Shown here in pieces: positions 2,087 through 59,100 of a stretch of 64,000 bases of DNA. Both the position numbers and the translations under genes were made by a program. Below the pieces are notes generated by a model that saw nothing but the letters and a program-made list of their open reading frames with translations, did not search any database and was not told the DNA's origin. Source of the DNA: Archivesica marissinica. Taxonomy: Eukaryota > Mollusca > Bivalvia > Venerida > Vesicomyidae. Location of the stretch: the NCBI GenBank assembly GCA_014843695.1, contig CM026401.1:24136597-24200596 (forward strand), read 5' to 3'. The number at the start of each line of letters is the position of its first letter. Position 1 is the first letter of the stretch.

Positions 2087-2151
2087 TCACAAGGTGCTCA
2101 TTGACAGCCAGAAGAGTAAATAGCTTCTAACAAGCTTCCTGTATAACTCAC

Positions 2152-2241
2152 CAGCTCCAGGAGGACACGCCTTCATAGTAGTAGAGTAGAATCCACTGTA
2201 TACCTCTCACATAGCACACTGCTTGATCCTCTAATACTTCC
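2152..2241 (-). CDS. XRN1: XRN1 exon H, source of the 49/61-bp satellite
   Basis: A 90-nt exon with acceptor AATGTTACAG and donor GGAGCTG|GTGAGT. Joined to exon G it completes Pro and reads EVLEDQAVCYVRGIQWILL then YYYEGVSSWS plus TG of Trp. This matches the conserved XRN1 block with ADQAACYV, AIQWIL-YYY-GV-SWSW. Its first 44 nt (2198-2241) and the upstream acceptor are nearly identical to the repeat unit that fills the preceding 21.5 kb. Because DQA-CYV is conserved in XRN1 generally, the exon must be the source and the satellite the copy. The donor is followed within about 65 bp by the 20-bp array. Confidence 0.95.
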
Positions 2242-5200
2242 CTGTAACATTACAGTATAATACAATACAGTATACCCTCACACAGCACACTGCCTGATCC
2301 CTGTAACATTACAATACAGTATACCATCACATAGCACACTGCCTGATCCCTGTAACATTACAGTATAATACAATACAGTATACCCTCACACAGCACACTG
2401 CCTGATCCTCTAATACTTCCCTGTAACATTACAGTATAATACAATACAGTATACCCTCACACAGCACACTGCCTGATCCCTGTAACATTACAATACAGTA
2501 TACCCCCACACAGCACACTGCCTGATCCTCTAATGCTTCCTTGTAACATTGCAATACAGTATACGCTCACACAGCACACTGCCTGATCCCTGTAACATTA
2601 CAATACAGTATACCCCTCACACAGCACACTGCCTGATCCCTGTAACGTTACAGTACAGTATACCCTCACATAGCACTGCCTGATCCCTGTAACATTACAA
2701 TACAGTATACCCTCACACAGCACACTGCCTGATCCCTGTAACATTACAATACAGTATACCCTCACACAGCACACTGCCTGATCCCTGTAACATTACAATA
2801 CAGTATACCCTCACACAGCACACTGCCTGATCCCTGTAACATTACAATACAGTATACCCTCACACAGCACACTGCCTGATCCCTGTAACATTACAATACA
2901 GTATACCCTCACATAGCACACTGTCTGATCCCTGTAACATTACAATACAGTATACTCTCACACAGCACACTGCCTGATCCCTGTAACATTACAATACAGT
3001 ATACCCTCACATAGCACACTGCCTGATCCCTGTAACATTACAATACAGTATACCCTCACATAGCACACTGCCTGATCCTCTAATGCTTCCCTGTAACATT
3101 ACAATACAGTATACCCTCACACAGCACACTGCCTGATCCCTGTAACATTACAATACAATATACCCCTACACAGCACACTGCCTGATCCCTGTAACATTAC
3201 AATACAGTATACCCTCACACAGCACACTGCCTGATCCCTGTAACATTACAATACAGTATACCCTCACACAGCACACTGCCTGATCCTCTAATGCTTCCCT
3301 GTAACATTACAATACAGTATACCCTCACACAGCACACTGCCTGATCCCTGTAACATTACAATACAGTATACCCTCACACAGCACACTGCCTGATCCCTGT
3401 AACATTACAATACAGTATACCCTCACACAGCACACTGCCTGATCCCTGTAACATTACAATACAGTATACCCTCACACAGCACACTGCCTGATCCCTGTAA
3501 CATTACAGTACAGTATACCCTCACACAGTACACTGCCTGATCCCTGTAACATTACAGTACAGTATACCCTCCATTAGCACACTGCCTGATCCTCTAATGC
3601 TTCCCAGTAACATTACAATACAGTATACCCTCACACAGCACACTGCCTGATCCCTGTAACATTACAATACAGTATACCCTCACACTGCACACTGCCTGAT
3701 CCTCTAATGCTTCCCTGTAACATTACAACACAGTATACCCTCACACAGCACACTGCCTGATCCCTGTAACATTACAGTACAGTATACCCTCACACAGTAC
3801 ACTGTCTGATCCCTGTAACATTACAATACAGTATACCCTCACACAGCACACTGCCTGATCCTTGTAACATTACACTACAGTATACCCTCACATAGCACAC
3901 TGTCTGATCCCTGTATCATTACAATACAGTATACTCTCACACAGCACACTGTCTGATCCCTGTAACATTACAATACAGTATACCCTCACATAGCACACTG
4001 CCTGATCCTCTAATGCTTCCCTGTAACATTACAATACAGTATACCCTCACACAGCACACTGCCTGATCCCTGTAACATTACAGTACAGTTTACCCTCACA
4101 CAGTACACTGTCTGATCCCTGTAACATTACAATACAGTATACCCTCACACAGCACACTGCCTGATCCTTGTAACATTACAATACAGTATACCCTCACATA
4201 GCACACTGTCTGATCCCTGTATCATTACAATACAGTATACTCTCACACAGCACACTGTCTGATCCCTGTAACATTACAATACAGTATACCCTCACATAGC
4301 ACACTGCCTGATCCTCTAATGCTTCCCTGTAACATTACAATACAGTATACCCTCACACAGCACACTGCCTGATCCCTGTAACATTACAATACAGTATACC
4401 CTCACACAGTACACTGCCTGATCCTTGTAACATTACAATACAGTATACCCTCACACTGCACACTGCCTGATCCTCTAATGCTTCCCTGTAACATTACAAT
4501 ACAGTATACCCTCACACAGTACACTGCCTGCTCCTTGTAACATTACAATACAGTATACCCTCACACTGCACACTGCCTGATCCTCTAATGCTTCCCTGTA
4601 ACATTACAATACAGTATACCCTAACACAGCACACTGCCTGATCTCTGTAACATTACAATACAGTATACCCTCACACAGTACACTGCCTGATCCCTGTAAC
4701 ATTACAGTACAGTATACCCTCACATAGCACACTGCCTGATCCCTGTAACATTACAGTACAGTATACCCTCACATAGCACACTGCCTGATCCCTGTAACAT
4801 TACAATACAGTTATACCCTCACATAGCACACTGCCTGATCCCTGTAACATTACAATACAGTATACCCTCACATAGCACACTGCCTGATCCCTGTAACATT
4901 ACAATACAGTATACCCTCACATAGCACACTGTCTGATCCCTGTAACATTACAATACAGTATACCCTCACGCAGTACACTGCCTGATCCCTGTAACAGTAC
5001 AGTATACCCTCACACAGCACACTGCCTGATCCCTGTAACATTACAGTACAGTATACCCTCACACAGTACACTAGTATAATCCCTGTAACATTACAATACA
5101 GTATACTATCACACAGCCTGATCCCTGTAACATTATAGTACAGTATACCCTCACACAGCACACTGCTTGATTCCTGTAACATTACAATACAGTATACCTT

Positions 5201-8200
5201 CACACAGCACACTGCCTGATCCCTGTAACATTACAGTACAGTATACCCCTCAAACAGTACACTACTTGATCCCTGTAACATTACAATACAGTATACCCTC
5301 ACACAGCACACTGCCTGATCCCTGTAACATTACAATACAGTATACCCTCACATAGCACACTGTCTGATCCCTGTAACATTACAATACAGTATATCCTCAC
5401 ACAGCACACTGCCTGATCCCTGTAACATTACAGTACAGTATACCCTCACACAGTACACTGCCTGACCCTCTAATGCTTCCCTGTAACATTACAATACAGT
5501 ATACCCTCAAACAGCACACTGCCTGATCCCTGTAACATTACAATACAGTATACCCTCACACAGCACACTGTCTGATCCCTGTAACATTACAATACAGTTT
5601 ACCCTCACATAGCACACTGCCTGATCCCTGTAACATTACAGTACAGTATACCCTCACACAGTACACTGCCTGATCCTCTAATGCTTCCCTGTAACATTAC
5701 AATACAGTATACCCTCAAACAGCACACTGCCTGATCCCTGTAACATTACAATACAGTATACCCTCACACAGCACACTGCCTGATCCCTGTAACATTACAA
5801 TACAGTATACCCTCACACAGCACACTGCCTGATCCCTGTAACATTACAATACAGTATACCCCTCACATAGCACACTGCCTGATCCTCTAATGTTTCCTTG
5901 TAACATTACAATACAGTATACCCTCACACAGCACACTGCCTGATCCCTGTAACATTACAATACAGTATACCCTCACACAGCACACTGCCTGATCCCTGTA
6001 ACATTACAATACAGTATACCCTCACACAGCACACTGCCTGATCCCTGTAACATTACAATACAGTAAACCCTCACACAGCACACTGCCTGATCCCTGTAAC
6101 ATTACAATACAGTATACCCTCGCACAGCACACTGCCTGATCCCTGTAACATTACAATACAGTATACCCTCACACAGCACACTGCCTGATCCTCTAATGCT
6201 TCCCTGTAACATTACAATACAGTATACCCTCACACAGCACACTGCCTGATCCCTGTAACATTACAATACAATATACCCGTACACAGCACACTGCCTGATC
6301 CCTGTAACATTACAATACAGTATACCCTCACACAGCACACTACCTGATCCCTGTAACATTACAATACAGTATACCCTCACACAGCACACTGCCTGATCCT
6401 CTAATGCTTCCCTGTAACATTACAATACAGTATACCCTCACACAGCACACTGCCTGATCCCTGTAACATTACAATACAGAATACCCTCACACTGCACACT
6501 GCCTGATCCTCTAATGCTTCCCTGTAACATTACAACACAGTATACCCTCACACAGCACACTGCCTGATCCCTGTAACATTACAGTACAGTATACCCTCAC
6601 ACAGTACACTGTCTGATCCCTGTAACATTACAATACAGTATACCCTCACACAGCACACTGCCTGATCCCTGTAACATTACAATACAGTATACCCTCACAT
6701 AGCACACTGTCTGATCCCTGTATCATTACAATACAGTATACTCTCACACAGCACAGTCTGATCCCTGTAACATTACAATACAGTATACCCTCACATAGCA
6801 CACTGCCTGATCCTCTAATGCTTCCCTGTAACATTACAATACAGTATACCCTCACACAGCACACTGCCTGATCCCTGTAACATTACAATACAGTATACCC
6901 TCACACAGTACACTGCCTGATCCTTGTAACATTACAATACAGTATACCCTCACACTGCACACTGCCTGATCCTCTAATGGTTCCCTGTAACATTACAATA
7001 CAGTATACCCTCACACAGCACACTGCCTGATCCTTGTAACATTACAATACAGTATACCCTCACACAGTACACTGCCTGCTCCTTGTAACATTACAATACA
7101 GTATACCCTCACACTGCACACTGCCTGATCCTCTAATGCTTCCCTGTAACATTACAATACAGTATACCCTCACACTGCACACTGCCTGATCCTCTAATGC
7201 TTCCCTGTAACATTACAATACAGTATACCCCTCACATAGCACACTGCCTGATCCCTGTAACATTACAATACAGTACACCCTCACACAGCACACTGCCTGA
7301 TCCCTGTAACATTACAATACAGTACACCCTCACACAGCACACCGCCTGATCCCTGTAACATTACAATACAGTATACTATCACACAGCCTGATCCCTGTAA
7401 CATTATAGTACAGTATACCCTCACACAGCACACTGCTTGATTCCTGTAACATTACAATACAGTATACCTTCACACAGCACACTGCCTGATCCCTGTAACA
7501 TTACAGTACAGTATACCCCTCACACAGCACACTACTTGATCCCTGTAACATTACAATACAGTATACCCTCATACAGCACACTGCCTGATCCCTGTAACAT
7601 TACAATACAGTAAACCCTCACACAGCACACTGCCTGATCCCTGTAACATTACAATACAGTAAACCCTCACACAGCACACTGCCTGATCCCTGTAACATTA
7701 CAATACAGTATACCCTCACACAGCACACTGCCTGATCCCTGTAACATTACAATACAGTATACCCTCACACTGCACACTGCCTGATCCTCTAATGCTTCCC
7801 TGTAACATTACAATACAGTATACCCTCACACAGCACACTGCCTGATCCCTGTAACATTACAATACAGTATACCCTCACACTGCACACTGTCTGATCCTCT
7901 AATGCTTCCCTGTAACATTACAATACAGTATACCCTCACACAGCACACTGCCTGATCCCTGTAACATTACAATACAGTATACCCTCACACAGCACACTGC
8001 CTGATCCCTGTAACATTACAATACAGTATACCCTCACACAGCACACTGCCTGATCCCTGTAACATTACAATACAGTATACCCTCACACAGCACACTGCCT
8101 GATCCTCTAATGCTTCCCTGTAACATTACAATACAGTATACCCTCACACAGCACACTGCCTGATCCCTGTAACATTACAATACAGTATACCCTCACACAG

Positions 8201-11200
8201 CACACTGCCTGATCCCTGTAACATTACAATACAGTATACCCTTACACAGCACACTGCCTGATCCCTGTAACATTACAATACAGTATACCCCTCATATAGC
8301 ACACTGCCTGATCCTCTAATGTTTCCTTGTAACATTACAATACAGTATACCCTCACACAGCACACTGCCTGATCCCTGTAACATTACAATACAGTATACC
8401 CTCACACAGCACACTGCCTGATCCTCTAATGCTTCCCTGTAACATTACAATACAGTACACCCTCACACAGCACACTGCCTGATCCCTGTAACATTACAAT
8501 ACAGTATACCTCACACAGCACACTGCCTGATCCTCTAATGCTTCCCTGTAACATTACAATACAGTATACCCTCACACAGCACACTGCCTGATCCCTGTAA
8601 CATTACAATACAGTACACCCTCACACAGCACACTGCCTGATCCCTGTAACATTACAATACAGTATACCCTCACACAGCACACTGCCTGATCCCTGTAACA
8701 TTACAATACAGTATACCCTCACACAGCACACTGCCTGATCCCTGTAACATTACAATACAGTATACCCTCACATAGCACACTGCCTGATCCCTGTAACATT
8801 ACAATACAGTATACCCTCACACAGCACACTGTCTGATCCCTGTAACATTACAATACAGTATACCCTCACACAGCACACTGCCTGATCCCTGTAACATTAC
8901 AATACAGTATACCCTCACATAGCACACTGCCTGATCCCTGTAACATTACAATACAGTATACCCTCACATAGCACACTGCCTGATCCCTGTAACATTACAA
9001 TACAGTATACCCTCACATAGCACACTGCCTGATCCCTGTAACATTACAATACAGTACACCCTCACACTGCACACTGCCTGATCCTCTAATGCTTCCCTGC
9101 AACATTACAATACAATATACCTTCACACAGCACACTGCCTGATCCCTGTAACATTACAATACAGTATACCCTCACACTGCACACTGCCTGATCCCTGTAA
9201 CATTACAATACAGTATACCCTCACACAGCACACTGCCTGATCCCTGTAACATTACAATACAGTATACCCTCACACTGCACACTGCCTGATCCCTGTAACA
9301 TTACAATACAGTATACCCTCACACAGCACACTGCCTGATCCCTGTAACATTACAATACAGTATACCCTCACACTGCACACTGCCTGATCCTCTAATGCTT
9401 CCCTGTAACATTACAATACAGTATACCCCTCACATAGCACACTGCCTGATCCCTGTAACAGTACAATACAGTACACCCTCACACAGCACACCGCCTGATC
9501 CCTGTAACATTACAATACAGTATACCCTCACACAGCACACTGCTTGATCCCTGTAACATTACAATACAGTATACTATCACACAGCCTGATCCCTGTAACA
9601 TTATAGTACAGTATACCCTCACACAGCACACTGCTTGATTCCTGTAAAATTACAATACAGTATACCTTCACACAGCACACTGCCTGATCCCTGTAACATT
9701 ACAGTACAGTATACCCCTCACACAGCACACTACTTGATCCCTGTAACATTACAATACAGTATACCCTCACACAGCACACTGCCTGATCCCTGTAACATTA
9801 CAATACAGTATACCCTCACATAGCACACTGCCTGATCCCTGTAACATTACAATACAGTATACCCTCACACAGCACACTGCCTGATCCCTGTAACATTACA
9901 ATACAGTATACCCTCACACAGCACACTGCCTGATCCCTGTAACATTACAATACAGTATACCCTCACACAGCACACTGCCTGATCCCTGTAACATTACAGT
10001 ACAGTATACCCTCACACAGTACACTGTCTGATCCCTGTAACATTACAATACAGTATACCCTCACACAGCACACTGCCTGATCCCTGTAACATTACAATAC
10101 AGTACACCCCCACACAGCACACTGCCTGATCCCTGTAACATTACAATACAGTATACCCTCACACAGCACACTGCCTGATCCCTGTAACATTACAATATAG
10201 TATACCCTCACATAGCACACTGCCTGATCCCTGTAACATTACAATACAGTATACCCTCACATAGCACACTGCCTGATCCCTGTAACATTACAATACAGTA
10301 TACCCTCACATAGCACACTGCCTGATCCTCTAATGCTTCCCTGTACCATTACAATACAGTATACCCTCAGACAGCACACTGCCTGATCCCTGTAACATTA
10401 CAATACAATATACCACTACACAGCACACTGCCTGATCCCTGTAACATTACAATACAGTATACCCTCACACAGCACACTGCCTGATCCCTGTAACATTACA
10501 ATACAGTATACCCTCACACAGCACACTGCCTGATCCTCTAATGCTTCCCTGTAACATTACAATACAGTATACCCTCACACAGCACACTGCCTGATCCCTG
10601 TAACATTACAATACAGTATACCCTCACACAGCACACTGCCTGATCCCTGTAACATTACAATACAGTATACCCTCACACAGCACACTGCCTGATCCCTGTA
10701 ACATTACAGTACAGTATACGCTCACAAAGTACACTGCCTGATCCCTGTAACATTACAGTACAGTATACCCTCACAAAGTACACTGCCTGATCCCTGTAAC
10801 ATTACAGTACAGTATACCCTCACATTAGCACACTGCCTGATCCTCTAATGCTTCCCAGTAACATTACAATACAGTATACCCTCACACAGCACACTGCCTG
10901 ATCCCTGTAACATTACAATACAGTATACCCTCACACTGCACACTGCCTGATCCTCTAATGCTTCCCTGTAACATTACAACACAGTATACCCTCACACAGC
11001 ACACTGCCTGATCCCTGTAACATTACAGTACAGTATACCCTCACACAGTACACTGTCTGATCCCTGTAACATTACAATACAGTATACCCTCACACAGCAC
11101 ACTGCCTGATCCCTGTAACATTACAATACAGTATACCTTCACATAGCACACTGTCTGATCCCTGTATCATTACAATACAGTATACCCTCACATAGCACAC

Positions 11201-13654
11201 TGCCTGATCCTCTAATGCTTCCCTGTAACATTACAATACAGTATACCCTCACACAGCACACTGCCTGATCCTCTAATGCCTCCTTGTAACATTACAATAC
11301 AGTATACCCTCACACTGCACACTGCCTGATCCTTGTAACATTACAATACAGTATACCTTTACACAGCACACTGCCTGATCCCTGTAACATTACAATACAG
11401 TATACCCTCACACAGCACACTGCCTGATCCTCTAATGCTTCCTTGTAACATTACAATACAGTAGACCCTCACACAGCACACTGCCTGATCCCTGTAACAT
11501 TACAATACAGTATACCCTCACACAGCACACTGCCTGATCCTCTAATGCTTCCTTGTAACATTACAATACAGTATACCCTCACACAGCACACTGCCTGATC
11601 CCTGTAACATTACAATACAGTATACCCTCACACAGCACACTGCCTGATCCCTGTAACATTACAATACAGTATACCCTCACACAGCACACTGCCTGATCCT
11701 CTAATGCTTCCCTGTAACATTACAATACAGTATACCCTCACACAGCACACGGCCCGATCCCTGTAACATTACAATACAGTATACCCTCACACAGCACACT
11801 GCCTGATCCCTGTAACATTACAATACAGTATACACTCACACAGCACACTGCCTGATCCTCTAATGCTTCCCTGTAACATTACAATACAGTATACCCTCAC
11901 ACAGCACACTGCCTGATCCTTGTAACATTACAATACAGTATACCCTCACACAGCACACTGCCTGATCCCTGTAACATTACAATACAGTATACCTTCACAT
12001 AGCACACTGTCTGATCCCTGTATCATTACAATACAGTATACCCTCACATAGCACACTGCCTGATCCTTGTAATTTGTTTGTGCTGTCCCTGTAACATTAC
12101 AATACAGTATACCCTCACACAGCACACTGCCTGATCCTCTAATGCCTCCTTGTAACATTACAATACAGTATACCCTCACACTGCACACTGCCTGATCCTT
12201 GTAACATTACAATACAGTATACCTTTACACAGCACACTGCCTGATCCCTGTAACATTACAATACAGTATACCCTCACACAGCACACTGCCTGATCCTCTA
12301 ATGCTTCCTTGTAACATTACAATACAGTATACCCTCACACAGCACACTGCCTGATCCCTGTAACATTACAATACAGTATACCCTCACACAGCACACTGCC
12401 TGATCCCTGTAACATTACAATACAGTATACCCTCACACAGCACACTGCCTGATCCCTGTAACATTACAATACAGTATACCCTCACACAGCACACTGCCTG
12501 ATCCACTGTAACATTACAATACAGTATACCCTCACACAGCACACTGCCTGATCCTCTAATGCTTCCCTGTAACATTACAATACAGTATACCCTCACACAG
12601 CACACTGCCTGATCCCTGTAACATTACAATACAGTATACCCTCACACAGCACACTGCCTGATCCCTGTAACATTACAATACAGTATACCCTCACACAGCA
12701 CACTGCCTGATCCCTGTAACATTACAATACAGTATACCCTCACACAGCACACTGCCTGATCCTTGTAACATTACAATACAGTATACCCTCACACAGCACA
12801 CTGCCTGATCCTCTAATGCTTCCCTGTAACATTACAATACAGTACACCCTCACACAGCACACTGCCTGATCCCTGTAACATTATAATACAGTATACCCTC
12901 ACACAGCACACTGCCTGATCCTCTAATGCTTCCCTGTAACATTACAATACAGTATACCCTCACACAGCACACTGCCTGATCCCTGTAACATTACAATACA
13001 GTATACCCTCACACAGCACACTGCCTGATCCCTGTAACATTACAATACAGTATACCCTCACATAGCACACTGCCTGATCCCTGTAACATTACAATACAGT
13101 ATACCCTCACACTGCACACTGCCTGATCCTCTAATGCTTCCCTGTAACATTACAATACAGTATACCCTCACACAGCACACTGCCTGATCCCTGTAACATT
13201 ACAATACAGTATACCCTCACACTGCACACTGCCTGATCCTCTAATGCTTCCCTGTAACATTACAATACAGTATACCCTCACACAGCACACTGCCTGATCC
13301 CTGTAACATTACAATACAGTATACCCTCACACAGCACACTGCCTGATCCCTGTAACATTACAATACAGTATACCCTCACACAGCACACTGCCTGATCCCT
13401 GTAACATTACAATACAGTATACCCTCACACTGCACACTGCCTGATCCTCTAATGCTTCCCTGTAACATTACAATACAGTATACCCTCACACTGCACACTG
13501 CCTGATCCCTGTAACATTACAATACAGTATACCCTCACACTGCACACTGCCTGATCCCTGTAACATTACAATACAGTATACCCTCACACAGCACACTGCC
13601 TGATCCCTGTAACGTTACAGTACAGTATACCCTCACATTGCACTGCCTGATCCT

Positions 13655-13704
13655 GTTTTGTTTGTGTGTTGTTTGTTTGTGTGTTTGTTTTGTTTGTGTG
13701 TTGT
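13655..13704. repeat. GT/T-rich insert inside a satellite unit
   Basis: About 50 bp of TTTGTTTGTGTGTTG-type sequence interrupts a 49-bp unit just after CTGATCC, replacing the normal CTGTAACATT junction. Similar inserts lie near 12066, 14078-14134, 14203-14219, 15793-15834, 16294-16309 and 16797-16895. They do not appear in the adjoining introns. Confidence 0.85.
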
Positions 13705-16700
13705 ACATTACAATACAGTATACCCTCACACAGCACACTGCCTGATCCCTGTAACATTATAATACAGTATACCCTCACACAGCACACTGCCTGATCCTTT
13801 GTTCTGTAACATTACAATACAGTATACCCTCACACAGCACACTGCCTGATCCTTGTAACATTACAGTAGTATACCCTCACACAGCACACTGCCTGATCCC
13901 TGTAACATTACAATACAGTATACCCTCACATAGCACACTGCCTGATCCCTGTAACATTATAATACAGTATACCCTCACACTGCACACTGCCTGATCCTCT
14001 AATGCTTCCCTGTAACATTACAATACAGTATACCCTCACACAGCACACTGCCTGATCCCTGTAACATTACAATACAGTTTTGTGTGTTTTGTTTGTTTTG
14101 TTTGTGTGTTGTTTTTTTGTGTGTTGTTTTGTATACCCTCACACTGCACACTGCCTGATCCCTGTAACATTACAATACAGTATACCCTCACATAGCACAC
14201 TGCTGTTGTTTTGTTTTGTCTGATCCCTGTAACATTACAATACAGTATACCCTCACACTGCACACTGCCTGATCCTCTAATGCTTCCCTGTAACATTACA
14301 ATACAGTATACCCTCACACAGCACACTGCCTGATCCCTGTAACATTACAATACAGTATACCCTCACACTGCACACTGCCTGATCCTCTAATGCTTCCCTG
14401 TAACATTACAATACAGTATACCCTCACACAGCACACTGCCTGATCCCTGTAACATTACAATACAGTATACCCTCACACTGCACACTGCCTGATCCTCTAA
14501 TGCTTCCCTGTAACATTACAATACAGTATACCCTCACACTGCACACTGCCTGATCCCTGTAACATTACAATACAGTATACCCTCACACTGCACACTGCCT
14601 GATCCCTGTAACATTACAATACAGTATACCCTCACACAGCACACTGCCTGATCCCTGTAACATTACAATACAGTATACCCTCACACTGCACACTGCCTGA
14701 TCCCTGTAACATTACAATACAGTATACCCTCACACAGCACACTGCCTGATCCCTGTAACATTACAATACAGTATACCTCACACAGCACACTGCATGATCC
14801 CTGTAACATTATAGTACAGTATACCCTCACATAGCACACTGCCTGATCCCTGTAACATTATAATACAGTATACCCTCACACTGCACACTGCCTGATCCTC
14901 TAATGCTTCCTTGTAACATTACAATACAGTATTCCCTCACACAGCACACTGCCTGATCCCTGTAACATTACAGTACAGTATACCCTCACACAGCACACTG
15001 CCTGATCCCTGTAACATTACAATACAGTATACCCTCACACAGCACACTGCCTGATCCCTGTAACATTACAGTACAGTATACCCTCACACAGCACACTGCC
15101 TGATCCCTGTAACATTACAATACAGTATACCCTCACACAGCACACTGCCTGATCCTCTAATGCTTCCCTGTAACATTACAATACAGTATACCCTCACACA
15201 GCACACTGCCTGATCCCTGTAACATTACAATACAGTATACCCTCACACAGCACACTGCCTGATCCTCTAATGCTTCCTTGTAACATTACAATACAGTATA
15301 CTCTCACACAGCACACTGCCTGATCGCTGTAACATTACAATACAGTATACCCCTCACACAGCACACTGCCTGATCCATGTAACATTACAATACAGTATAC
15401 CCTCACACAGCACACTGCCTGATCCCTGTAACATTACAATACAGTATACCCTCACACTGCACACTGCCTGATCCTCTAATGCTTCCCTGTAACATTACAA
15501 TACAGTATACCCTCACACAGCACACTGCCTGATCCCTGTAACATTACAATACAGTATACCCTCACACAGCACACTGCATGATCCCTGTAACATTATAGTA
15601 CAGTATACCCTCACATAGCACACTGCCTGATCCCTGTAACATTATAATACAGTATACCCTCACACTGCACACTGCCTGATCCTCTAATGCTTCCTTGTAA
15701 CATTACAATACAGTATTCCCTCACACAGCACACTGCCTGATCCCTGTAACATTACAGTACAGTATACCCTCACACAGCACACTGCCTGATCCGTTTGTGT
15801 GTTGTTTTGTTTGTGTGTTGTTTTGTTTGTGTGTCTGTAACATTACAGTACAGTATACGCTCACAAAGTACACTGCCTGATCCCTGTAACATTACAGTAC
15901 AGTATACCCTCACAAAGTACACTGCCTGATCCCTGTAACATTACAGTACAGTATACCCTCACATAGCACACTGCCTGATCCTCTAATGCTTCCCTGTAAC
16001 ATTACAATACAGTATACCCTCACACAGCACACTGCCTGATCCCTGTAACATTACAATACAGTATACCCTCACACTGCACACTGCCTGATCCTCTAATGCT
16101 TCCTTGTAACATTACAATACAGTATACTCTCACACAGCACACTGCCTGATCGCTGTAACATTACAGTACAGTATACCCTCACACAGTACACTGTCTGATC
16201 CATGTAACATTACAATACAGTATACCCTCACACAGCACACTGCCTGATCCTTGTAACATTACAATACAGTATACCCTCACATAGCACACTGTCTGTTGTT
16301 TTTGTTTTGGTCTGATCCATGTAACATTACAATACAGTATACCCTCACATTGCACACTGCCTGATCCTTTGTTTGTAACATTACAATACAGTATACCTTC
16401 ACACAGCACACTGCCTGATCACTGTAACATTACAATACAGTATACCCTCACACAGCACACTGCCTGATCCCTGTAACATTACAATACAGTATACCCTCAC
16501 ACTGCACACTGCCTGATCCTCTAATGTTTCCCTGTAACATTACAATACAGTATACCCTCACACAGCACACTGCCTGATCCTTGTAACATTACAATATAGT
16601 ATACCCTCACACAGTACACTGCCTGATCCTTGTAACATTACAATACAGTATACCCTCACATTGCACACTGCCTGATCCTTTGTTCTGTAACATTACAATA

Positions 16701-16796
16701 CAGTATACCCTCACACTGCACACTGCCTGATCCTCTAATGCTTTCCTGTAACATTACAATACAGTATACCCTCACATAGCACACTGCCTGATCCTG

Positions 16797-16895
16797 TAAT
16801 TTGTTGTGTGTTGTTTTGTTGGTGTTGTTTTGTTTTGTGTTGTTTTGTGTTTGTGTTGTTTGTTTTGTTTTGTGTGTTGTTTGTGTTTGTGCTTG
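16797..16895. repeat. Longest GT/T-rich insert in the 49/61-bp array
   Basis: About 100 bp of irregular TTGTTTTGT and GTGTTGT motifs sits between CTGATCCTGTAA and CCCTGTAACATT. It is the largest of the GT-rich inserts, again at the point that corresponds to the exon start in the minus-strand unit. Confidence 0.85.
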
Positions 16896-19800
16896 TCCCT
16901 GTAACATTACAATACAGTATACCCTCATACAGCACACTGCCTGATCCCTGTAACATTACAATACAGTATACCCTCACATAGCACTGCCTGATCCCTGTAA
17001 CATTACAATACAGTATACCCTCACACAGCACACTGCCTGATCCCTGTAACATTACAATACAGTATACCATCACATAGCACACTGCCTGATCCCTGTAACA
17101 TTACAATACAGTATACCCTCACACTGCACACTGCCTGATCCTCTAATGCTTCCCTGTAACATTACAATACAGTATACCCTCACACAGCACACTGCCTGAT
17201 CCCTGTAACATTACAATACAGTATACCCTCACACTGCACACTGTCTGATCCTCTAATGCTTCCTTGTAACATTGCAATACAGTATACGCTCACACAGCAC
17301 ACTGCCTGATCCCTGTAACATTACAATACAGTATACCCTCACACAGCACACTGCCTGATCCCTGTAACGTTACAGTACAGTATACCCTCACATAGCACTG
17401 CCTGATCCTCCCTGTAACATTACAATACAGTACACCCTCACACAGCACACTGCCTGATCCCTGTAACATTACAATACAGTACACCCTCACACAGTACACT
17501 GTCTGATCCCTGTAACATTACAATACAGTATACCTCACACAGCACACTGCCTGATCCCTGTAACATTACAATACAGTATACCTTCACATAGCACACTGTC
17601 TGATCCCTGTAACATTACAATACAGTATACCCTCACACAGCACACTGTCTGATCCCTGTAACATTACAATACAGTATACCCTCACACAGCACACTGCCTG
17701 ATCCCTGTAACATTACAATACAGTATACCCTCACATAGCACACTGCCTGATCCCTGTAACATTACAATACAGTATACCCTCACATAGCACACTGCCTGAT
17801 CCCTGTAACATTACAATACAGTATACCCTCACATAGCACACTGCCTGATCCCTGTAACATTACAATACAGTACACCCTCACACTGCACACTGCCTGATCC
17901 TCTAATGCTTCCCTGCAACATTACAATACAGTATACCTTCACACAGCACACTGCCTGATCCCTGTAACATTACAATACAGTATACCCTCACACTGCACAC
18001 TGCCTGATCCTTTGTTCCCTGTAACATTACAATACAGTATACCCTCACACTGCACACTGCCTGATCCCTGTAACATTACAATACAGTATACCCTCACACT
18101 GCACACTGCCTGATCCCTGTAACATTACAATACAGTATACCCTCACACAGCACACTGCCTGATCCCTGTAACATTACAATACAGTATACCCTCACACTGC
18201 ACACTGCCTGATCCTCTAATGCTTCCCTGTAACATTACAATACAGTATACCCCTCACATAGCACACTGCCTGATCCCTGTAACAGTACAATACAGTACAC
18301 CCTCACACAGCACACCGCCTGATCCCTGTAACATTACAATACAGTATACCCTCACACAGCACACTGCTTGATCCCTGTAACATTACAATACAGTATACTA
18401 TCACACAGCCTGATCCCTGTAACATTATAGTACAGTATACCCTCACACAGCACACTGCTTGATTCCTGTAAAATTACAATACAGTATACCTTCACACAGC
18501 ACACTGCCTGATCCCTGTAACATTACAGTACAGTATACCCCTCACACAGCACACTACTTGATCCCTGTAACATTACAATACAGTATACCCTCACACAGCA
18601 CACTGCCTGATCCCTGTAACATTACAATACAGTATACCCTCACATAGCACACTGCCTGATCCCTGTAACATTACAATACAGTATACCCTCACACAGCACA
18701 CTGCCTGATCCCTGTAACATTACAATACAGTATACCCTCACACAGCACACTGCCTGATCCCTGTAACATTACAATACAGTATACCCTCACACAGCACACT
18801 GCCTGATCCCTGTAACATTACAGTACAGTATACCCTCACACAGTACACTGTCTGATCCCTGTAACATTACAATACAGTATACCCTCACACAGCACACTGC
18901 CTGATCCCTGTAACATTACAATACAGTACACCCCCACACAGCACACTGCCTGATCCCTGTAACATTACAATACAGTATACCCTCACACAGCACACTGCCT
19001 GATCCCTGTAACATTACAATATAGTATACCCTCACATAGCACACTGCCTGATCCCTGTAACATTACAATACAGTATACCCTCACATAGCACACTGCCTGA
19101 TCCCTGTAACATTACAATACAGTATACCCTCACATAGCACACTGCCTGATCCTCTAATGCTTCCCTGTACCATTACAATACAGTATACCCTCAGACAGCA
19201 CACTGCCTGATCCCTGTAACATTACAATACAATATACCACTACACAGCACACTGCCTGATCCCTGTAACATTACAATACAGTATACCCTCACACAGCACA
19301 CTGCCTGATCCCTGTAACATTACAATACAGTATACCCTCACACAGCACACTGCCTGATCCTCTAATGCTTCCCTGTAACATTACAATACAGTATACCCTC
19401 ACACAGCACACTGCCTGATCCCTGTAACATTACAATACAGTATACCCTCACACAGCACACTGCCTGATCCCTGTAACATTACAATACAGTATACCCTCAC
19501 ACAGCACACTGCCTGATCCCTGTAACATTACAGTACAGTATACGCTCACAAAGTACACTGCCTGATCCCTGTAACATTACAGTACAGTATACCCTCACAA
19601 AGTACACTGCCTGATCCCTGTAACATTACAGTACAGTATACCCTCACATTAGCACACTGCCTGATCCTCTAATGCTTCCCAGTAACATTACAATACAGTA
19701 TACCCTCACACAGCACACTGCCTGATCCCTGTAACATTACAATACAGTATACCCTCACACTGCACACTGCCTGATCCTCTAATGCTTCCCTGTAACATTA

Positions 19801-22800
19801 CAACACAGTATACCCTCACACAGCACACTGCCTGATCCCTGTAACATTACAGTACAGTATACCCTCACACAGTACACTGTCTGATCCCTGTAACATTACA
19901 ATACAGTATACCCTCACACAGCACACTGCCTGATCCCTGTAACATTACAATACAGTATACCTTCACATAGCACACTGTCTGATCCCTGTATCATTACAAT
20001 ACAGTATACCCTCACATAGCACACTGCCTGATCCTCTAATGCTTCCCTGTAACATTACAATACAGTATACCCTCACACAGCACACTGCCTGATCCTCTAA
20101 TGCCTCCTTGTAACATTACAATACAGTATACCCTCACACTGCACACTGCCTGATCCTTGTAACATTACAATACAGTATACCTTTACACAGCACACTGCCT
20201 GATCCCTGTAACATTACAATACAGTATACCCTCACACAGCACACTGCCTGATCCTCTAATGCTTCCTTGTAACATTACAATACAGTAGACCCTCACACAG
20301 CACACTGCCTGATCCCTGTAACATTACAATACAGTATACCCTCACACAGCACACTGCCTGATCCTCTAATGCTTCCTTGTAACATTACAATACAGTATAC
20401 CCTCACACAGCACACTGCCTGATCCCTGTAACATTACAATACAGTATACCCTCACACAGCACACTGCCTGATCCCTGTAACATTACAATACAGTATACCC
20501 TCACACAGCACACTGCCTGATCCTCTAATGCTTCCCTGTAACATTACAATACAGTATACCCTCACACAGCACACGGCCCGATCCCTGTAACATTACAATA
20601 CAGTATACCCTCACACAGCACACTGCCTGATCCCTGTAACATTACAATACAGTATACACTCACACAGCACACTGCCTGATCCTCTAATGCTTCCCTGTAA
20701 CATTACAATACAGTATACCCTCACACAGCACACTGCCTGATCCTTGTAACATTACAATACAGTATACCCTCACACAGCACACTGCCTGATCCCTGTAACA
20801 TTACAATACAGTATACCTTCACATAGCACACTGTCTGATCCCTGTATCATTACAATACAGTATACCCTCACATAGCACACTGCCTGATCCTCTAATGCTT
20901 CCCTGTAACATTACAATACAGTATACCCTCACACAGCACACTGCCTGATCCTCTAATGCCTCCTTGTAACATTACAATACAGTATACCCTCACACTGCAC
21001 ACTGCCTGATCCTTGTAACATTACAATACAGTATACCCTCACACAGCACACTGCCTGATCCCTGTAACATTACAATACAGTATACCCTCACACAGCACAC
21101 TGCCTGATCCTCTAATGTTCCTGTAACATTACAATACAGTATACCCTCACACAGCACACTGCCTGATCCCTGTAACATTACAATACAGTATACCCTCACA
21201 CAGCACACTGCCTGATCCTCTAATGCTTCCTTGTAACATTACAATACAGTATACCCTCACACAGCACACTGCCTGATCCCTGTAACATTACAATACAGTA
21301 TACCCTCACACAGCACACTGCCTGATCCCTGTAACATTACAATACAGTATACCCTCACACAGCACACTGCCTGATCCTCTAATGCTTCCTGTAACATTAC
21401 AATACAGTATACCCTCACACAGCACACTGCCTGATCCCTGTAACATTACAATACAGTATACCCTCACACAGCACACTGCCTGATCCCTGTAACATTACAA
21501 TACAGTATACCCTCACACAGCACACTGCCTGATCCTCTAATGCTTCCCTGTAACATTACAATACAGTATACCCTCACACAGCACACTGCCTGATCCCTGT
21601 AACATTACAATACAGTATACCCTCACACAGCACACTGCCTGATCCTCTAATGCTTCCTTGTAACATTACAATACAGTATACTCTCACACAGCACACTGCC
21701 TGATCGCTGTAACATTACAATACAGTATACCCCTCACACAGCACACTGCCTGATCCATGTAACATTACAATACAGTATACCCTCACACAGCACACTGCCT
21801 GATCCCTGTAACATTACAATACAGTATACCCTCACACTGCACACTGCCTGATCCTCTAATGCTTCCCTGTAACATTACAATACAGTATACCCTCACACAG
21901 CACACTGCCTGATCCCTGTAACATTACAATACAGTATACCCTCACACAGCACACTGCATGATCCCTGTAACATTATAGTACAGTATACCCTCACATAGCA
22001 CACTGCCTGATCCCTGTAACATTATAATACAGTATACCCTCACACTGCACACTGCCTGATCCTCTAATGCTTCCTTGTAACATTACAATACAGTATTCCC
22101 TCACACAGCACACTGCCTGATCCCTGTAACATTACAGTACAGTATACCCTCACACAGCACACTGCCTGATCCCTGTAACATTACAATACAGTATACCCTC
22201 ACACAGCACACTGCCTGATCCCTGTAACATTACAGTACAGTATACCCTCACACAGCACACTGCCTGATCCCTGTAACATTACAATACAGTATACCCTCAC
22301 ACAGCACACTGCCTGATCCTCTAATGCTTCCCTGTAACATTACAATACAGTATACCCTCACACAGCACACTGCCTGATCCCTGTAACATTACAATACAGT
22401 ATACCCTCACACAGCACACTGCCTGATCCTCTAATGCTTCCTTGTAACATTACAATACAGTATACTCTCACACAGCACACTGCCTGATCGCTGTAACATT
22501 ACAATACAGTATACCCCTCACACAGCACACTGCCTGATCCATGTAACATTACAATACAGTATACCCTCACACAGCACACTGCCTGATCCCTGTAACATTA
22601 CAATACAGTATACCCTCACACAGCACACTGCCTGATCCATGTAACATTACAATACAGTATACCCTCACACTGCACACTGCCTGATCCTTGTAACATTACA
22701 ATACAGTATACCTTCACACAGCCCACTGCCTGATCACTGTAACATTACAATACAGTATACCCTCACACAGCACACTGCCTGATCCCTGTAACATTACAAT

Positions 22801-23799
22801 ACAGTATACCCTCACACTGCACACTGCCTGATCCTCTAATGTTTCCTTGTAACATTACAATACAGTATACCCTCACACAGCACACTACCTGATCCCTGTA
22901 ACATTACAATATAGTATACCCTCACACAGCACACTGCCTGATCCCTGTAACATTACAATACAGTATACCCTCACATAGCACACTGCCTGATCCCTGTAAC
23001 ATTACAATACAGTATACCCTCACACAGCACACTGCCTGATCCTCTAATGCTTTCCTGTAACATTACAATACAGTATACCCTCACACAGCACACTGCCTGA
23101 TCCTCTAATGCTTCCCTGTAACATTACAATACAGTATACCCTCACACAGCACACTGCCTGATCCCTGTAACATTACAATACAGTATACCCTCACATAGCA
23201 CTGCCTGATCCCTGTAACATTACAATACAGTATACCCTCACACAGCACACTGCCTGATCCCTGTAACATTACAATACAGTATACCCTCACATAGCACACT
23301 GCCTGATCCCTGTAACATTACAATATAATACAATACAGTATACCCTCACACAGCACACTGCCTGATCCTCTAATGCTTCCTTGTAACATTACAATACAGT
23401 ATACCCTCACACAGCACACTGCCTGATCCCTGTAACATTACAATACAGTATACCCTCACACAGCACACTGCCTGATCCTCTAATGCTTCCTTGTAACATT
23501 ACAATACAGTATACCCTCACACAGCACACTGCCTGATCCCTGTAACATTACAATACAGTATACCCTCACACAGCACACTGCCTGATCCCTGTAACATTAC
23601 AATACAGTATACCCCTCACACAGCACACTGCCTGATCCATGTAACATTACAATACAGTATACCCTCACACTGCACACTGCCTGATCCTCTAATGCTTCCC
23701 TGTAACATTACAATACAGTATACCCCTCACATATTACCCTGTCTTACCAGCATCCTACAATACCCTCCCCACTAATGTTAACAAGATGAGCCAACTTAC

Positions 23800-23905
23800 G
23801 GAGTGACTTTCTCATATTGCAGTTTGGTCATGTAGTAGTTACGTTTATGATGTCTAAATTCATCACTCAATGTATCATCATCGGAGAAATCATCAGATAA
23901 ACCTT
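23800..23905 (-). CDS. XRN1: XRN1 exon G
   Basis: A 106-nt exon with acceptor TAATTTCAG and donor ACTCC|GTAAGT. Two bases complete Glu, then GLSDDFSDDDTLSDEF and RHHKRNYYMTKLQYEKVT, ending with CC of a Pro codon. The D-rich run followed by EFR-HKR-YYMTK is a recognised XRN1 signature. The donor GTAAGT is close to consensus. The 49/61-bp satellite begins only about 65 bp into the next intron and fills it completely. Confidence 0.94.
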
Positions 23906-24668: not shown

Positions 24669-24825
24669 CTTCCTGAAATATAGAGTCAATGACTTCAGTT
24701 CCCAGTTCCTCCATCGGAGAGTCTAGCACATCGGAATCGACCATACCACCACCCAATACATCAAACCGGTTTCTTCCCTCACTCTTGTTCTTTATCATGC
24801 TATTTACTTTATTATACGTCTGTTT
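24669..24825 (-). CDS. XRN1: XRN1 exon F, variable acidic linker
   Basis: A 157-nt exon with acceptor TTGTTTTCAG and donor CAGGAAG|GTATGA. It has 52 codons plus one base, beginning KQTYNKVNSMIKNKSEGRNR, continuing with a Gly triplet and an acidic stretch (VDSDVLDSPMEELGTEVID), and ending IFQE. Sequence conservation with vertebrate XRN1 is weak here, as expected for the low-complexity loop between the conserved nuclease blocks. The call rests on clean splice sites, matching phases on both sides (0 in, 1 out) and the position between two clear XRN1 exons. Confidence 0.85.
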
Positions 24826-24941: not shown

Positions 24942-25064
24942 CTGGTTTTTGCCGATTTTCCTGGCTGCTGACAGAAGTTCTGCTTTCCCTACACTAGCCT
25001 CAGACTTCTTCGATTCTAACCATTTCAGGTCCCCAACTTGATCAGAAAATGTGTCAAAATCAAA
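24942..25064 (-). CDS. XRN1: XRN1 exon E
   Basis: A 123-nt exon of 41 whole codons, with acceptor AATTTCAG and donor AACCAG|GTAGAT. It reads FDFDTFSDQVGDLKWLESKK, then a lysine-rich stretch ending in ARKIGKNQ. The FD---F-----DLKW-ESK pattern matches XRN1 directly after the exon D helix. The rest is charged and likely part of the variable linker inside the nuclease region. A short 116-bp intron separates it from exon F. Upstream is a 12.8-kb intron filled with three satellites and transposon remnants. Confidence 0.92.
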
Positions 25065-53125: not shown

Positions 53126-56100
53126 GATTGTGTGTGATTGTTTTACCTGTGATTGTTTTACATGTGATTGTTTTACGTGTGATTGTGTGTGATTGTTTTA
53201 TGTGTGATTGTGTGTGATTGTTTTATGTGTGATTGTTTTATGTGTGATTGTTTTATGTGTGATTGTTTTATGTGTGATTGTTTTATGTGTGATTGTTTTA
53301 TGTGTGATTGTTTTACATGTGATTGTTTTACATGTGATTGTTTTATGTGTGATTGTTTTATGTGTGATTGTTTTATGTGTGATTGTTTTACATGTGATTG
53401 TTTTACATGTGATTGTTTTATGTGTGATTGTTTTATGTGTGATTGTTTTATGTGTGATTGTTTTATGTGTGATTGTTTTACATGTGATTGTTTTATGTGT
53501 GATTGTTTTATGTGTGATGGTTTTATGTGTGATTGTTTTACATGTGATTGTTTTACATGTGATTGTTTATGTGTGATTGTTTTATGTGTGATTGTTTTAT
53601 GTGTGATTGTTTTATGTGTGATTGTTTTACATGTGATTGTTTTATGTGTGATTGTTTTATGTGTGATTGTTTTACATGCAATTGTTTTATGTGTGATTGT
53701 TTTATGTGTGATTGTTTTACATGTGATTGTTTTACATGCGATTGTTTTACATGCGATTGTTTTACGTGTGATTGTTTTATGTGTGATTGTTTTGCATGCG
53801 ATTGTTTTACATGCGATTGTTTTATGTGTGATTGTTTTACATGCGATTGTTTTACGTGTGATTGTTTTATGTGTGATTGTTTTACGTATGATTGTTTTAT
53901 GTGTGATTGTTTTACGTGTGATTGTTTTATGTGTGATTGTTTTACATGCGATTGTTTTACATGCGATTGTTTTACATGCGATTGTTTTACATGCGATTGT
54001 TTTATGTGTGATTGTTTTACGTGTGATTGTTTTACATGTGATTGTTTTATGTGTGATTGTTTTACATGTGATTGTTTTACATGCGATTGTTTTACATGCG
54101 ATTGTTTTATGTGTGATTGTTTTACGTGTGATTGTTTTATGTGTGATTGTTTTACATGCGATTGTTTTACATGCGATTGTTTTATGTGTGATTGTTGTAC
54201 ATGTGATTGTTTTACATGTGATTGTTCTATGTGTGATTGTTTTACATGCGATTGTTTTACATGCGATTGTTTTACATGCGATTGTTTTACATGCGATTGT
54301 TTTATGTGTGATTGTTTTACATGTGATTGTTTTACATGCGATTGTTTTATGTGTGATTGTTTTACATGCGATTGTTTTACATGCGATTGTTTTATGTGTG
54401 ATTGTTTTACATGCGATTGTTTTACATGTGATTGTTTTGCATGCGATTGTTTTATGTGTGATTGTTTTATGTGTGATTGTTTTATGTGCGATTGTTTTAT
54501 GTGTGATTGTTTTGCATGCGAATGTTTTATGTGTGATTGTTTTATGTTTTATGTGTGATTGTTTTATGTTTTATTTGTGATTGTTTTATGTGTGATTGTT
54601 TTATGTGTGATTGTTTTGCATGCGATTGTTTTATGTGCGATTGTTTTATGTGCGATTGTTTTATGTGTGATTGTTTTACATGCGATTGTTTTATGTGCGA
54701 TTGTTTTACATGCGATTGTTTTACATGTGATTGTTTTATGTGTGATTGTTTTGCATGCGATTGTTTTACGTGCGATTGTTTTACGTGCGATTGTTTTATG
54801 TGTGATTGTTTTACATGTGATTGTTTTACATGCGATTGTTTTACATGCGATTGTTTTACATGCGATTGTTTTATGTGTGATTGTTTTGCATGCGATTGTT
54901 TTATGTGTGATTGTTTTACATGTGATTGTTTTATGTGCGATTGTTTTACGTGTGATTGTTTTACATGCGATTGTTTTATGTGTGATTGTTTTACATGTGA
55001 TTGTTTTACATGCGATTGTTTTATGTGTGATTGTTTTACATGCGATTGTTTTATGTGTGATTGTTTTATGTGTGATTGTTTTACATGTGATTGTTTTATG
55101 TGTGATTGTTTTATGTGTGATTGTTTTACATGCGATTGTTTTACATGTGATTGTTTATGTGTGATTGTTTTATGTGTGATTGTTTTATGTGCGATTGTTT
55201 TATGTGCGATTGTTTTATGTGCGATTGTTTTATGTGCGATTGTTTTATGTGCGATTGTTTTATGTGTGATTGTTTTATGTGTGATTGTTTTATGTGTGAT
55301 TGTTTTACATGCGATTGTTTTACCTGTGATTGTTTTATGTGTGATTGTTTTACATGCGATTGTTTTATGTGCGATTGTTTTACACGTGATTGTTTTACAT
55401 GTGATTGTTTTACGTGCGATTGTTTTATGTGCGATTGTTTTACATGTGATTGTTTTACATGTGATTGTTTTACGTGTGATTGTTTTATGTGTGATTGTTT
55501 TGCATGCGATTGTTTTATGTGTGATTGTTTTACATGCGATTGTTTTACATGTGATTGTTTTATGTGTGATTGTTTTACATGTGATTGTTTTACATGCGAT
55601 TGTTTTATGTGTGATTGTTTTACATGCGATTGTTTTACATGCGATTGTTTTGTGTGCGATTGTTTTACATGTGCTTGTTTTACATGCGATTGTTTTATGT
55701 GTGATTGTTTTACATGTGATTGTTTTACATGCGATTGTTTTATGTGTGATTGTTTTACGTGTGATTGTTTTACATGCGATTGTTTTATGTGTGATTGTTT
55801 TACATGTGATTGTTTTACATGCGATTGTTTTATGTGTGATTGTTTTACATGTGATTGTTTTACATGTGATTGTTTTATGTTTGTTTTAATGCGATTGTTT
55901 TACATGTGATTGTTTTACATGCGATTGTTTTATGTGTGATTGTTTTACATGTGATTGTTTTACATGCGATTGTTTTATGTGTGATTGTTTTACATGCGAT
56001 TGTTTTATGTGTGATTGTTTTACATGCGATTGTTTTATGTGTGATTGTTTTATGTGTGATTGTTTTACATGCGATTGTTTTACATGTGATTGTTTTGTGT

Positions 56101-59100
56101 GATTGTTTTACATGCGATTGTTTTACATGCGATTGTTTTACATGCGATTGTTTTACATGCGATTGTTTTATGTGTGATTGTTTTACATGTGATTGTTTTA
56201 CATGCGATTGTTTTATGTGTGATTGTTTTACATGCGATTGTTTTACATGCGATTGTTTTATGTGTGATTGTTTTACATGCGATTGTTTTACATGTGATTG
56301 TTTTGCATGCGAATGTTTTATGTGTGATTGTTTTATGTTTTATTTGTGATTGTTTTATGTGTGATTGTTTTATGTGTGATTGTTTTGCATGCGATTGTTT
56401 TATGTGCGATTGTTTTATGTGCGATTGTTTTATGTGTGATTGTTTTACATGCGATTGTTTTATGTGCGATTGTTTTACATGTGATTGTTTTACATGTGAT
56501 TGTTTTATGTGTGATTGTTTTGCATGCGATTGTTTTACGTGCGATTGTTTTACGTGCGATTGTTTTATGTGTGATTGTTTTACATGTGATTGTTTTACAT
56601 GCGATTGTTTTACATGCGATTGTTTTACATGCGATTGTTTTATGTGTGATTGTTTTGCATGCGATTGTTTTATGTGTGATTGTTTTACATGTGATTGTTT
56701 TATGTGCGATTGTTTTACGTGTGATTGTTTTACATGCGATTGTTTTATGTGTGATTGTTTTACATGTGATTGTTTTACATGCGATTGTTTTATGTGTGAT
56801 TGTTTTACATGCGATTGTTTTATGTGTGATTGTTTTATGTGTGATTGTTTTACATGTGATTGTTTTATGTGTGATTGTTTTATGTGTGATTGTTTTACAT
56901 GCGATTGTTTTACATGTGATTGTTTTATGTGTGATTGTTTTATGTGTGATTGTTTTATGTGCGATTGTTTTATGTGCGATTGTTTTATGTGCGATTGTTT
57001 TATGTGCGATTGTTTTATGTGCGATTGTTTTATGTGTGATTGTTTTATGTGTGATTGTTTTATGTGTGATTGTTTTACATGCGATTGTTTTACCTGTGAT
57101 TGTTTTATGTGTGATTGTTTTACATGCGATTGTTTTATGTGCGATTGTTTTACACGTGATTGTTTTACATGTGATTGTTTTACGTGCGATTGTTTTATGT
57201 GCGATTGTTTTACTGTGTTGTTTTAATGTGATTGTTTTACTGTGATTGTTTTATGTGTGATTGTTTTACATGCGATTGTTTTATGTGTGATTGTTTTACA
57301 TGCGATTGTTTTACATGCGATTGTTTTATGTGTGATTGTTTTACATGTGATTGTTTTACATGCGATTGTTTTATGTGTGATTGTTTTACATGCGATTGTT
57401 TTACATGCGATTGTTTTATGTGTGATTGTTTTACATGTGATTGTTTTACATGTGATTGTTTTACATGCGATTGTTTTATGTGTGATTGTTTTATGTGTGA
57501 TTGTTTTACATGCGATTGTTTTATGTGTGATTGTTTTACGTGTGATTGTTTTACATGCGATTGTTTTACGTGTGATTGTTTTACATGCGATTGTTTTATG
57601 TGTGATTGTTTTACATGCGATTGTTTTACATGCGATTGTTTTATGTGTGATTGTTTTACATGCGATTGTTTTATGTGTGATTGTTTTACATGCGATTGTT
57701 TTACATGCGATTGTTTTATGTGTGATTGTTTTATGTGTGATTGTTTTACATGTGATTGTTTTACATGCGATTGTTTTATGTGTGATTGTTTTACGTGTGA
57801 TTGTTTTATGTGTGATTGTTTTACATGTGATTGTTTTACATGCGATTGTTTTATGTGTGATTGTTTTACATGTGATTGTTTTACATGCGATTGTTTTACA
57901 TGTGATTGTTTTACATGCGATTGTTTTATGTGTGATTGTTTTACATGTGATTGTTTTACATGCGATTGTTTTATGTGTGATTGTTTTACATGTGATTGTT
58001 TTACATGCGATTGTTTTATGTGTGATTGTTTTACATGCGATTGTTTTATGTGTGATTGTTTTACATGCGATTGTTTTATGTGTGATTGTTTTATGTGTGA
58101 TTGTTTTGCATGTGATTGTTTTACGTGCGATTGTTTTATGTGTGATTGTTTTACGTGTGATTGTTTTATGTGTGATTGTTTTACATGTGATTGTTTTACA
58201 TGCGATTGTTTTATGTGTGATTGTTTTACATGCGATTGTTTTACATGCGATTGTTTTACGTGTGATTGTTTTACATGCGATTGTTTTATGTGTGATTGTT
58301 TTACGTGTGATTGTTTTACATGCGATTGTTTTATGTGTGATTGTTTTACATGTGATTGTTTTACATGTGATTGTTTTATGTGTGATTGTTTTACATGCGA
58401 TTGTTTTACATGCGATTGTTTTATGTGTGATTGTTTTGTGTGATTGTTTTATGTGTGATTGTTTTATGTGTGATTGTTTTACATGCGATTGTTTTATGTG
58501 TGATTGTTTTACATGTGATTGTTTTACATGTGATTGTTTTACATGTGATTGTTTTACATGCGATTGTTTTATGTGTGATTGTTTACATGCGATTGTTTTA
58601 TGTGCGATTGTTTTACGTGTGATTGTTTTACATGCGATTGTTTTATGTGTGATTGTTTTACGTGTGATTGTTTTACATGCGATTGTTTTATGTGTGATTG
58701 TTTTACATGTGATTGTTTTACATGCGATTGTTTTATGTGTGATTGTTTTACATGCGATTGTTTTACATGCGATTGTTTTATGTGTGATTGTTTTACATGT
58801 GATTGTTTTACATGCGATTGTTTTATGTGTGATTGTTTTACATGTGATTGTTTTACATGCGATTGTTTTATGTGTGATTGTTTTACGTGTGATTGTTTTA
58901 CATGTGATTGTTTTATGTGTGATTGTTTTACGTGTGATTGTTTTATGTGTGATTGTTTTACATGTGATTGTTTTACATGTGATTGTTTATGTGTGATTGT
59001 TTTATGTGTGATTGTTTTATGTGTGATTGTTTTATGTGTGATTGTTTTACATGTGATTGTTTTACCTGTGATTGTTTTATGTGTGATTGTTTTACATGTG

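Follow-up and report, generated by a model that had tools for sequence, protein, structure and literature searches.

The closest described systems are the mirages of amphioxus, which are minisatellite-like tandem duplications of exon-intron boundaries, for example in the globin genes BflGb6 and BflGb9 (PMC3087553), with PGBD5, Adh and TnC as additional cases (PMC3902484). Either exon boundary can be affected (PMC3087553, PMC3902484). Here we describe an array of this kind in a 64,000-nucleotide stretch of the bivalve Archivesica marissinica (hereafter the window, in whose coordinates positions are given unless stated otherwise). It occupies one intron of an RNA-degrading, XRN1-like gene on the minus strand, between two exons referred to as g and h. 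As in the mirages, the unit covers a splice site together with the end of the exon next to it, the splice signals are copied, and cluster edges escape homogenisation, here the edge on the exon side (PMC3087553, PMC3902484). The scale is different: BflGb6 carries 3 or 6 units, each of 150-160 bp, and the Adh3 units measure 10-72 bp, while the XRN1 array has 408 units besides the exon copy, extends over 21.5 kb and is found in a bivalve (PMC3087553). For the mirages, reverse transcription PCR suggests normal splicing (PMC3087553); for the XRN1 array it is predicted. A sequence-only reading of the window had knowledge of no described case of an exon boundary turned into a satellite on this scale; the amphioxus mirages (PMC3087553, PMC3902484) and other arrays in this genome do not support the view that the kind is undescribed. 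The XRN1 array is real and at a single locus, and likely exon-seeded: a giant acceptor-side mirage in a bivalve genome that has donor-side ones in no small number. The kind is already known; the scale, the lineage and perhaps a donor/acceptor contrast are new. No account of exon-boundary arrays in molluscs or at this scale was found in searches of an open-licence library.

Three other systems bear comparison. Intron gain by tandem genomic duplication of exonic AGGT reportedly also copies splice-site sequence by duplication inside a gene; unlike that case, the XRN1 copies lie within an existing intron and a new intron is not evident. The giant Y-linked genes of Drosophila contain large intronic satellites, that is, long arrays in introns that need to be spliced, and their units are not known to derive from a splice site and exon of the host gene itself. 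Satellite DNA of the conventional kind resembles the XRN1 array in having copies by the hundred in head-to-tail order, a higher-order period (here 159 bp) and block duplication. Unlike it, the XRN1 array is found at one locus and its unit appears to come from a coding exon edge, so that "minisatellite" is the better word. The mirages are known from cephalochordates, a matter of where they were described and not of structure; the host here is a bivalve. A cephalochordate source of this DNA was ruled out by seven joined CCT5 exons (423 aa), which among the named proteins in the best 120 of 7998 matches are closest to bivalves: Mercenaria mercenaria (87%), Ruditapes philippinarum (87%) and Mactra antiquata (86%), followed by Dreissena and Mya (81%).

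The array (2242..23734, minus strand) was delimited by Tandem Repeats Finder (TRF), segmentation and alignment. Its 408 units are mainly 49 and 61 nt long, and each combines a core resembling an acceptor with a diverged copy of the start of exon h. TRF reported a period of 49 x 413.8 copies at 2440-23687 and a 159-bp period as well, the length of two short units and one long unit; another TRF row (2198-2589) connects the array to exon h. Segmentation gave 409 unit starts, the final one being the exon copy, with 49 nt (277) and 61 nt (81) as the commonest spacings, and a motif test assigned 90 of the 408 units to the long type. Exon h itself (2152..2241, minus strand, 90 nt, ..EVLEDQAVCYVRGIQWILLYYYEGVSSWSW), placed by phmmer, unit alignment and sequence, is a terminal copy of the array unit across its first 44 nt. 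These 44 nt (GGAAG to GGTATAC) share 40 identical positions with the consensus long unit, with one 1-nt gap. Unit 2433 matches exon h plus the acceptor core in 54 of 57 columns (2 mismatches and 1 gap). The local alignment of the exon h start with its own upstream flank scored 63; the top score of 20 flank shuffles was 18. The unit, with its acceptor core and 44 exon nt, spans the exon-intron boundary as mirage units do, and the splice signal has been copied with it: TTACAG is kept in 343 of 408 units and ACAG in 352. The exon-edge array in XRN1 is real. The sequence-only reading had put the identity between unit and exon start at about 40 of 44 with one gap, taken the exon start as the terminal unit, and estimated about 400 copies over about 21.5 kb; all of this was reproduced, the first with the consensus long unit, the second in the last segmented start, and the third in the 408 units of an intron of 21,558 nt. 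GT-rich short repeats (TTTGTTTGTGTGTTG-like) were also found by TRF within the array, at 13654-13704, 14077-14132, 15793-15834 and 16800-16896.

Several features point to the exon as the source. Exon h encodes DQAVCYVRGIQW, compared to DQAACYVQAIQW in human XRN1, and Tyr-Val is kept by fly and yeast. The claim that the DQA-CYV segment is conserved in XRN1 held for human (DQA..CYV..IQW) and, for YV, in fly and yeast. In the array, TGCTGTGTG (Cys) is present in 243 of 408 units and TGCTATGTG (Tyr) in 61. Exon h thus has the conserved state, since Tyr is found in human, fly and yeast and the units mostly read Cys. The AGAGGTATAC of exon h is present in 0 of 408 units; the aligned long units have lost one of its bases, which breaks the frame. 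Exon-proximal units (2255..2492, minus strand; segmentation, alignment and tree) bear an extra TATTATAC element, confined to units 2492, 2433 and 2313. The sequence GGAAGTATTAG occurs only in the 71-nt unit 2433 and in exon h, and GGAAGCATTAG is found in 77 units. With TATTATAC and GGAAGTATTAG retained there, the exon-side edge of the array has not been homogenised, as in mirage clusters. Unit 2433 is the most exon-like and the nearest to exon h (4 alignment differences versus 16 for the next three), and it is the first split in an exon-rooted FastTree of 132 distinct sequences including the exon. A unit tree had been suggested as a check by the sequence-only reading: the exon is not nested among derived units, but the tree has low support and we chose to root it on the exon.

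The array is also found at one place only. A 44-nt short-unit pattern allowing up to 3 mismatches was found 278 times in the 1.54-Gb genome, always on the same strand, and 278 times in the window alone. The equal counts place the array at a single locus, and a dispersed satellite DNA family was ruled out; by this pattern there were no unit copies at unrelated loci, where their abundance would, for the sequence-only reading, have been a refutation. Based on these comparisons, the edge of XRN1 exon h is likely the seed of the array. The earlier proposal of the exon edge as source is supported as likely by the conserved Tyr codon, the single locus, and the most exon-like unit being a neighbour of the exon. 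We consider it highly probable that this is a giant exon-boundary minisatellite, started by a small duplication across the exon h acceptor and grown within the intron, with the real exon left as the last copy.

This genome abounds in tandem arrays, a number of which run across exon edges, and the XRN1 array is one result of that. A region of 284 kb that surrounds the gene and includes 6 kb of N has 65 TRF arrays with a score of at least 200 after overlap removal, which sum to 62% of the length; some of them have a unit in common. A second array is associated with the next XRN1 exon, i (C16:24132135-24132291, outside the window), which ends with AAACCATATCAG. The donor-side array after this exon, 27 bp x 57, is just outside the window (C16:24130609-24132148). 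Its unit consists of the 12 exon nt AAACCATATCAG, GTTAGT and 9 further intron nt; 53 of 55 segmented units are exactly 27 nt and the GT is kept in 53 of 53. Long stretches of it are open and read as VSQLSKPYQ repeats, so that use of a later donor is predicted to add 9 residues per copy.

We surveyed 40 of 57 CCT exon matches (17 were dropped as retrocopy-like, near-duplicate or weaker) and 20 of 125 kinesin matches (the first 21 without a duplicate that lies on a small contig), and included 300-350 nt of flank at either end. Donors were hand-placed in 54 of these 60 exons and at least 3 copies were required for an array. Six of the 54 donors were crossed by arrays, with units of 26-76 bp and with 59 (L052), 38 (L044), 35 (L031), 18 (L079), 4 (L058) and 2 (L051) exon nt inside; the crossings at L058 and L051 rest on few bases. 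Five more donor-side arrays begin within the first 60 nt of the intron, of 17 arrays found at the 54 donors altogether. None of the 60 acceptors was crossed, although 8 arrays stop no more than 60 nt upstream of where the match begins. The difference between donor and acceptor crossing gave a Fisher p of 0.0097 per boundary and 0.018 for edges. A TRF-free alignment scan of the 60 exons flagged 4 donors and 1 acceptor, the latter (L074, upstream of a kinesin exon) being a two-copy duplication of roughly 155 bp. An imperfect donor-side repeat at L067 (2.0 copies by TRF) went unflagged. Among the edges of 11 XRN1 exons, some of them roughly placed, the exon h acceptor stands out (63 versus 18, as above); the exon i donor showed a slight excess (32 versus 28) and its 27-bp array is plain by reading. 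A kinesin exon outside the survey (L087, C6:90884200-90885300), fetched because the kinesin search gave repeated matches, has a 113-bp array (6.0 copies) on its acceptor side, and 3 of the 5 decoys there read TTACAT. The two-copy duplication at L074 and the six-copy array at L087 look like earlier stages of an XRN1-type array.

The donor/acceptor contrast is a lead only, given the small sample from two gene families. Donor-side arrays are perhaps commoner in the sample because the authentic donor is met first, while acceptor-side arrays put decoys before the real site. The acceptor-side array in XRN1 is an extreme case of the rarer polarity. A broader proposal, to which we give slightly less than an even chance, is that exon edges are routine satellite seeds in this bivalve (about 1 in 9 sampled donors lies inside an array), as an independent counterpart of the amphioxus mirages. 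Splicing would act as the filter: donor-side arrays would persist, acceptor-side arrays would be removed unless exon definition protects them, and intron g-h would be an extreme survivor with about 350 decoys before one real exon. Another explanation, unlikely but the strongest of the rivals, is that exon boundaries are hotspots at which a process linked to transcription or splicing seeds arrays. The surveyed arrays do begin near donors (6 inside the exon and 5 in the next 60 nt, of 17 at 54 donors). However, counting only the first array per side in flanks that end at about 300-350 nt favours short distances, arrays are spread throughout introns too, and no acceptor was crossed.

The growth of the array has left traces in its interior. 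There are 126 distinct unit sequences among the 408, and the order of short and long units is irregular. A 2,876-bp block at 9192..12067 is 99.97% identical to its partner at 18016..20891 (both minus strand; positions are array coordinates plus 2250), which indicates a recent block duplication or an assembly duplication, and a gapped 5.6-kb pair within the array shows 96.6% identity. Unequal exchange or block duplication fits these repeats better than single-unit slippage. Our model begins with a duplication that would have fused the exon, at GGTATAC, with intron sequence upstream of the acceptor, where there is another TATAC, giving a 71-nt founder unit resembling unit 2433. A 10-nt deletion and a 12-nt deletion would then have produced the units of 61 and 49 nt. 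Their number may have risen to 408 through unequal exchange or block duplication, with the interior homogenised and the exon-side edge less so. Assembly duplication may be the source of the 2,876-bp repeat. It is improbable that part of the array as such arose in assembly, where duplicated or misjoined reads would have inflated a shorter boundary repeat. The near-identical block and the 5.6-kb pair would agree with it, but not the variety of unit sequences and their irregular order; thousands of bases are left without the repeated block, and further arrays of the same class are present in the genome.

Splice sites were scored with a 3' splice site weight matrix made from 58 acceptors that we placed by hand in CCT and kinesin genes and a 5' splice site matrix from 54 hand-placed donors, all of the same genome. 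The acceptor core of exon h, TGTAATGTTACAG (2242..2254, minus strand), is common to the array units and scores 9.78 in exon h. It is equalled or beaten by 279 of the 352 ACAG-keeping decoys, and the decoy median is above 74% of the 58 natural acceptors. The decoy acceptors did not prove weaker than the true site, and acceptor strength is unable to pick the last copy. The exon h donor GTGAGT (2146..2151, minus strand, starting at 2151) scores 8.93, a value reached by 0 of 3180 GTs in the array; the best donor score in the consensus short unit is 4.89. Exon h also contains an internal GAG|GTATAC with a donor score of 7.5. Since a donor of 8.93 strength is present only at the last copy, we predict that exon definition selects the real exon h over the decoys. 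In the last step of the model, decoys would be skipped in this way and the array would be tolerated, because a strong donor follows only the last copy, 90 nt on.

A splicing or regulatory role for the array has a slim chance in our estimate; the unit acceptors would serve recursive or stepwise intron removal, or controlled inclusion would lower XRN1. Retention of TTACAG in 343 units and the good scores of the decoy acceptors are what such a role would lead one to expect, yet homogenisation alone can preserve these sites, and other unit positions are equally conserved. An AG|GT ratchet site is absent from the consensus 49-nt unit, whose donors are weak, and unit lengths of 49 and 61 break the frame. 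That the satellite came first, and the exon edge either arose from it or was replaced through array-to-exon gene conversion, is very improbable: similarity alone gives no direction (units and exon are alike at 53-54 of 57 positions), but the exon h residues are conserved in human, fly and yeast, the units lack one base with the frame broken, and no copies were found by pattern at other loci.

Some observations do not sit well with an exon-seeded array whose decoys are skipped. Divergence from the exon is uncorrelated with distance from it, both in 277 short units (Spearman p 0.40) and in 89 long ones (p 0.21), and the distal unit 23322 is no farther from exon h than unit 2362. The supports in the unit tree are low and the exon root was chosen, so the polarity rests on protein conservation, and the founder junction is one that we infer. 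The best array GT scores 8.81, 21 are at or above the natural lower quartile and 372 at or above the natural 5th percentile; weak pseudo-exons may therefore exist in the array. The upstream donor of intron g-h itself, TCC|GTAAGT, scores only 1.81 with the same matrix.

The exons in the window, on the minus strand, belong to a gene resembling XRN1. By phmmer, the joined peptide of exons g, h and i (118 aa) matched human XRN1 (9e70_A, E 1.5e-44, 154 bits), fly (2y35_A, E 1.7e-33) and yeast (6q8y_z, E 3.2e-31). It is nearer to XRN1 than to XRN2 (best XRN2 105 bits), and so is a peptide composed of upstream exons (human XRN1 237 bits versus best XRN2 138). Intron g-h (23799-2242, 21,558 nt, by sequence and TRF) is nearly all one array. 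Exon g (23800..23905; sequence and phmmer) ends with ..EKVTP in a phase compatible with exon h. Exon f (24669..24825) was placed by sequence and open reading frame and alone has no significant match; exon e (FDFDTFSDQVGDLKWLESKKS.., 24942..25064) was placed by sequence, with a weak second domain to human XRN1. An array of a 15-bp unit (12.3 kb, 825.9 copies) occupies window positions 53132-64000 and the next 1,456 nt, and its end adjoins an XRN1 exon (TPGEGEHK..). Elsewhere in the genome, two myosin-head matches to the same model positions (122-152) lie 240 bp apart at C5:100289375 and C5:100289615, a possible exon-derived repeat. Locus L088 (C18:57969400-57970600) is a nuclear-assembled mitochondrial-like COX1 copy that has a frame change and borders on a stretch of N.

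For the bivalve, normal XRN1 mRNA would require that hundreds of false splice sites be ignored. With near-equal acceptors in hundreds and the real donor after the last one only, the locus is a natural titration of exon definition, and the copy used could be read from RNA. Exon-edge arrays would also mislead gene predictors, for example where the 27-bp array of exon i is open as VSQLSKPYQ repeats. If such arrays are common in bivalve and amphioxus, they would be a recurrent route to longer introns, cryptic splice sites and perhaps new introns.
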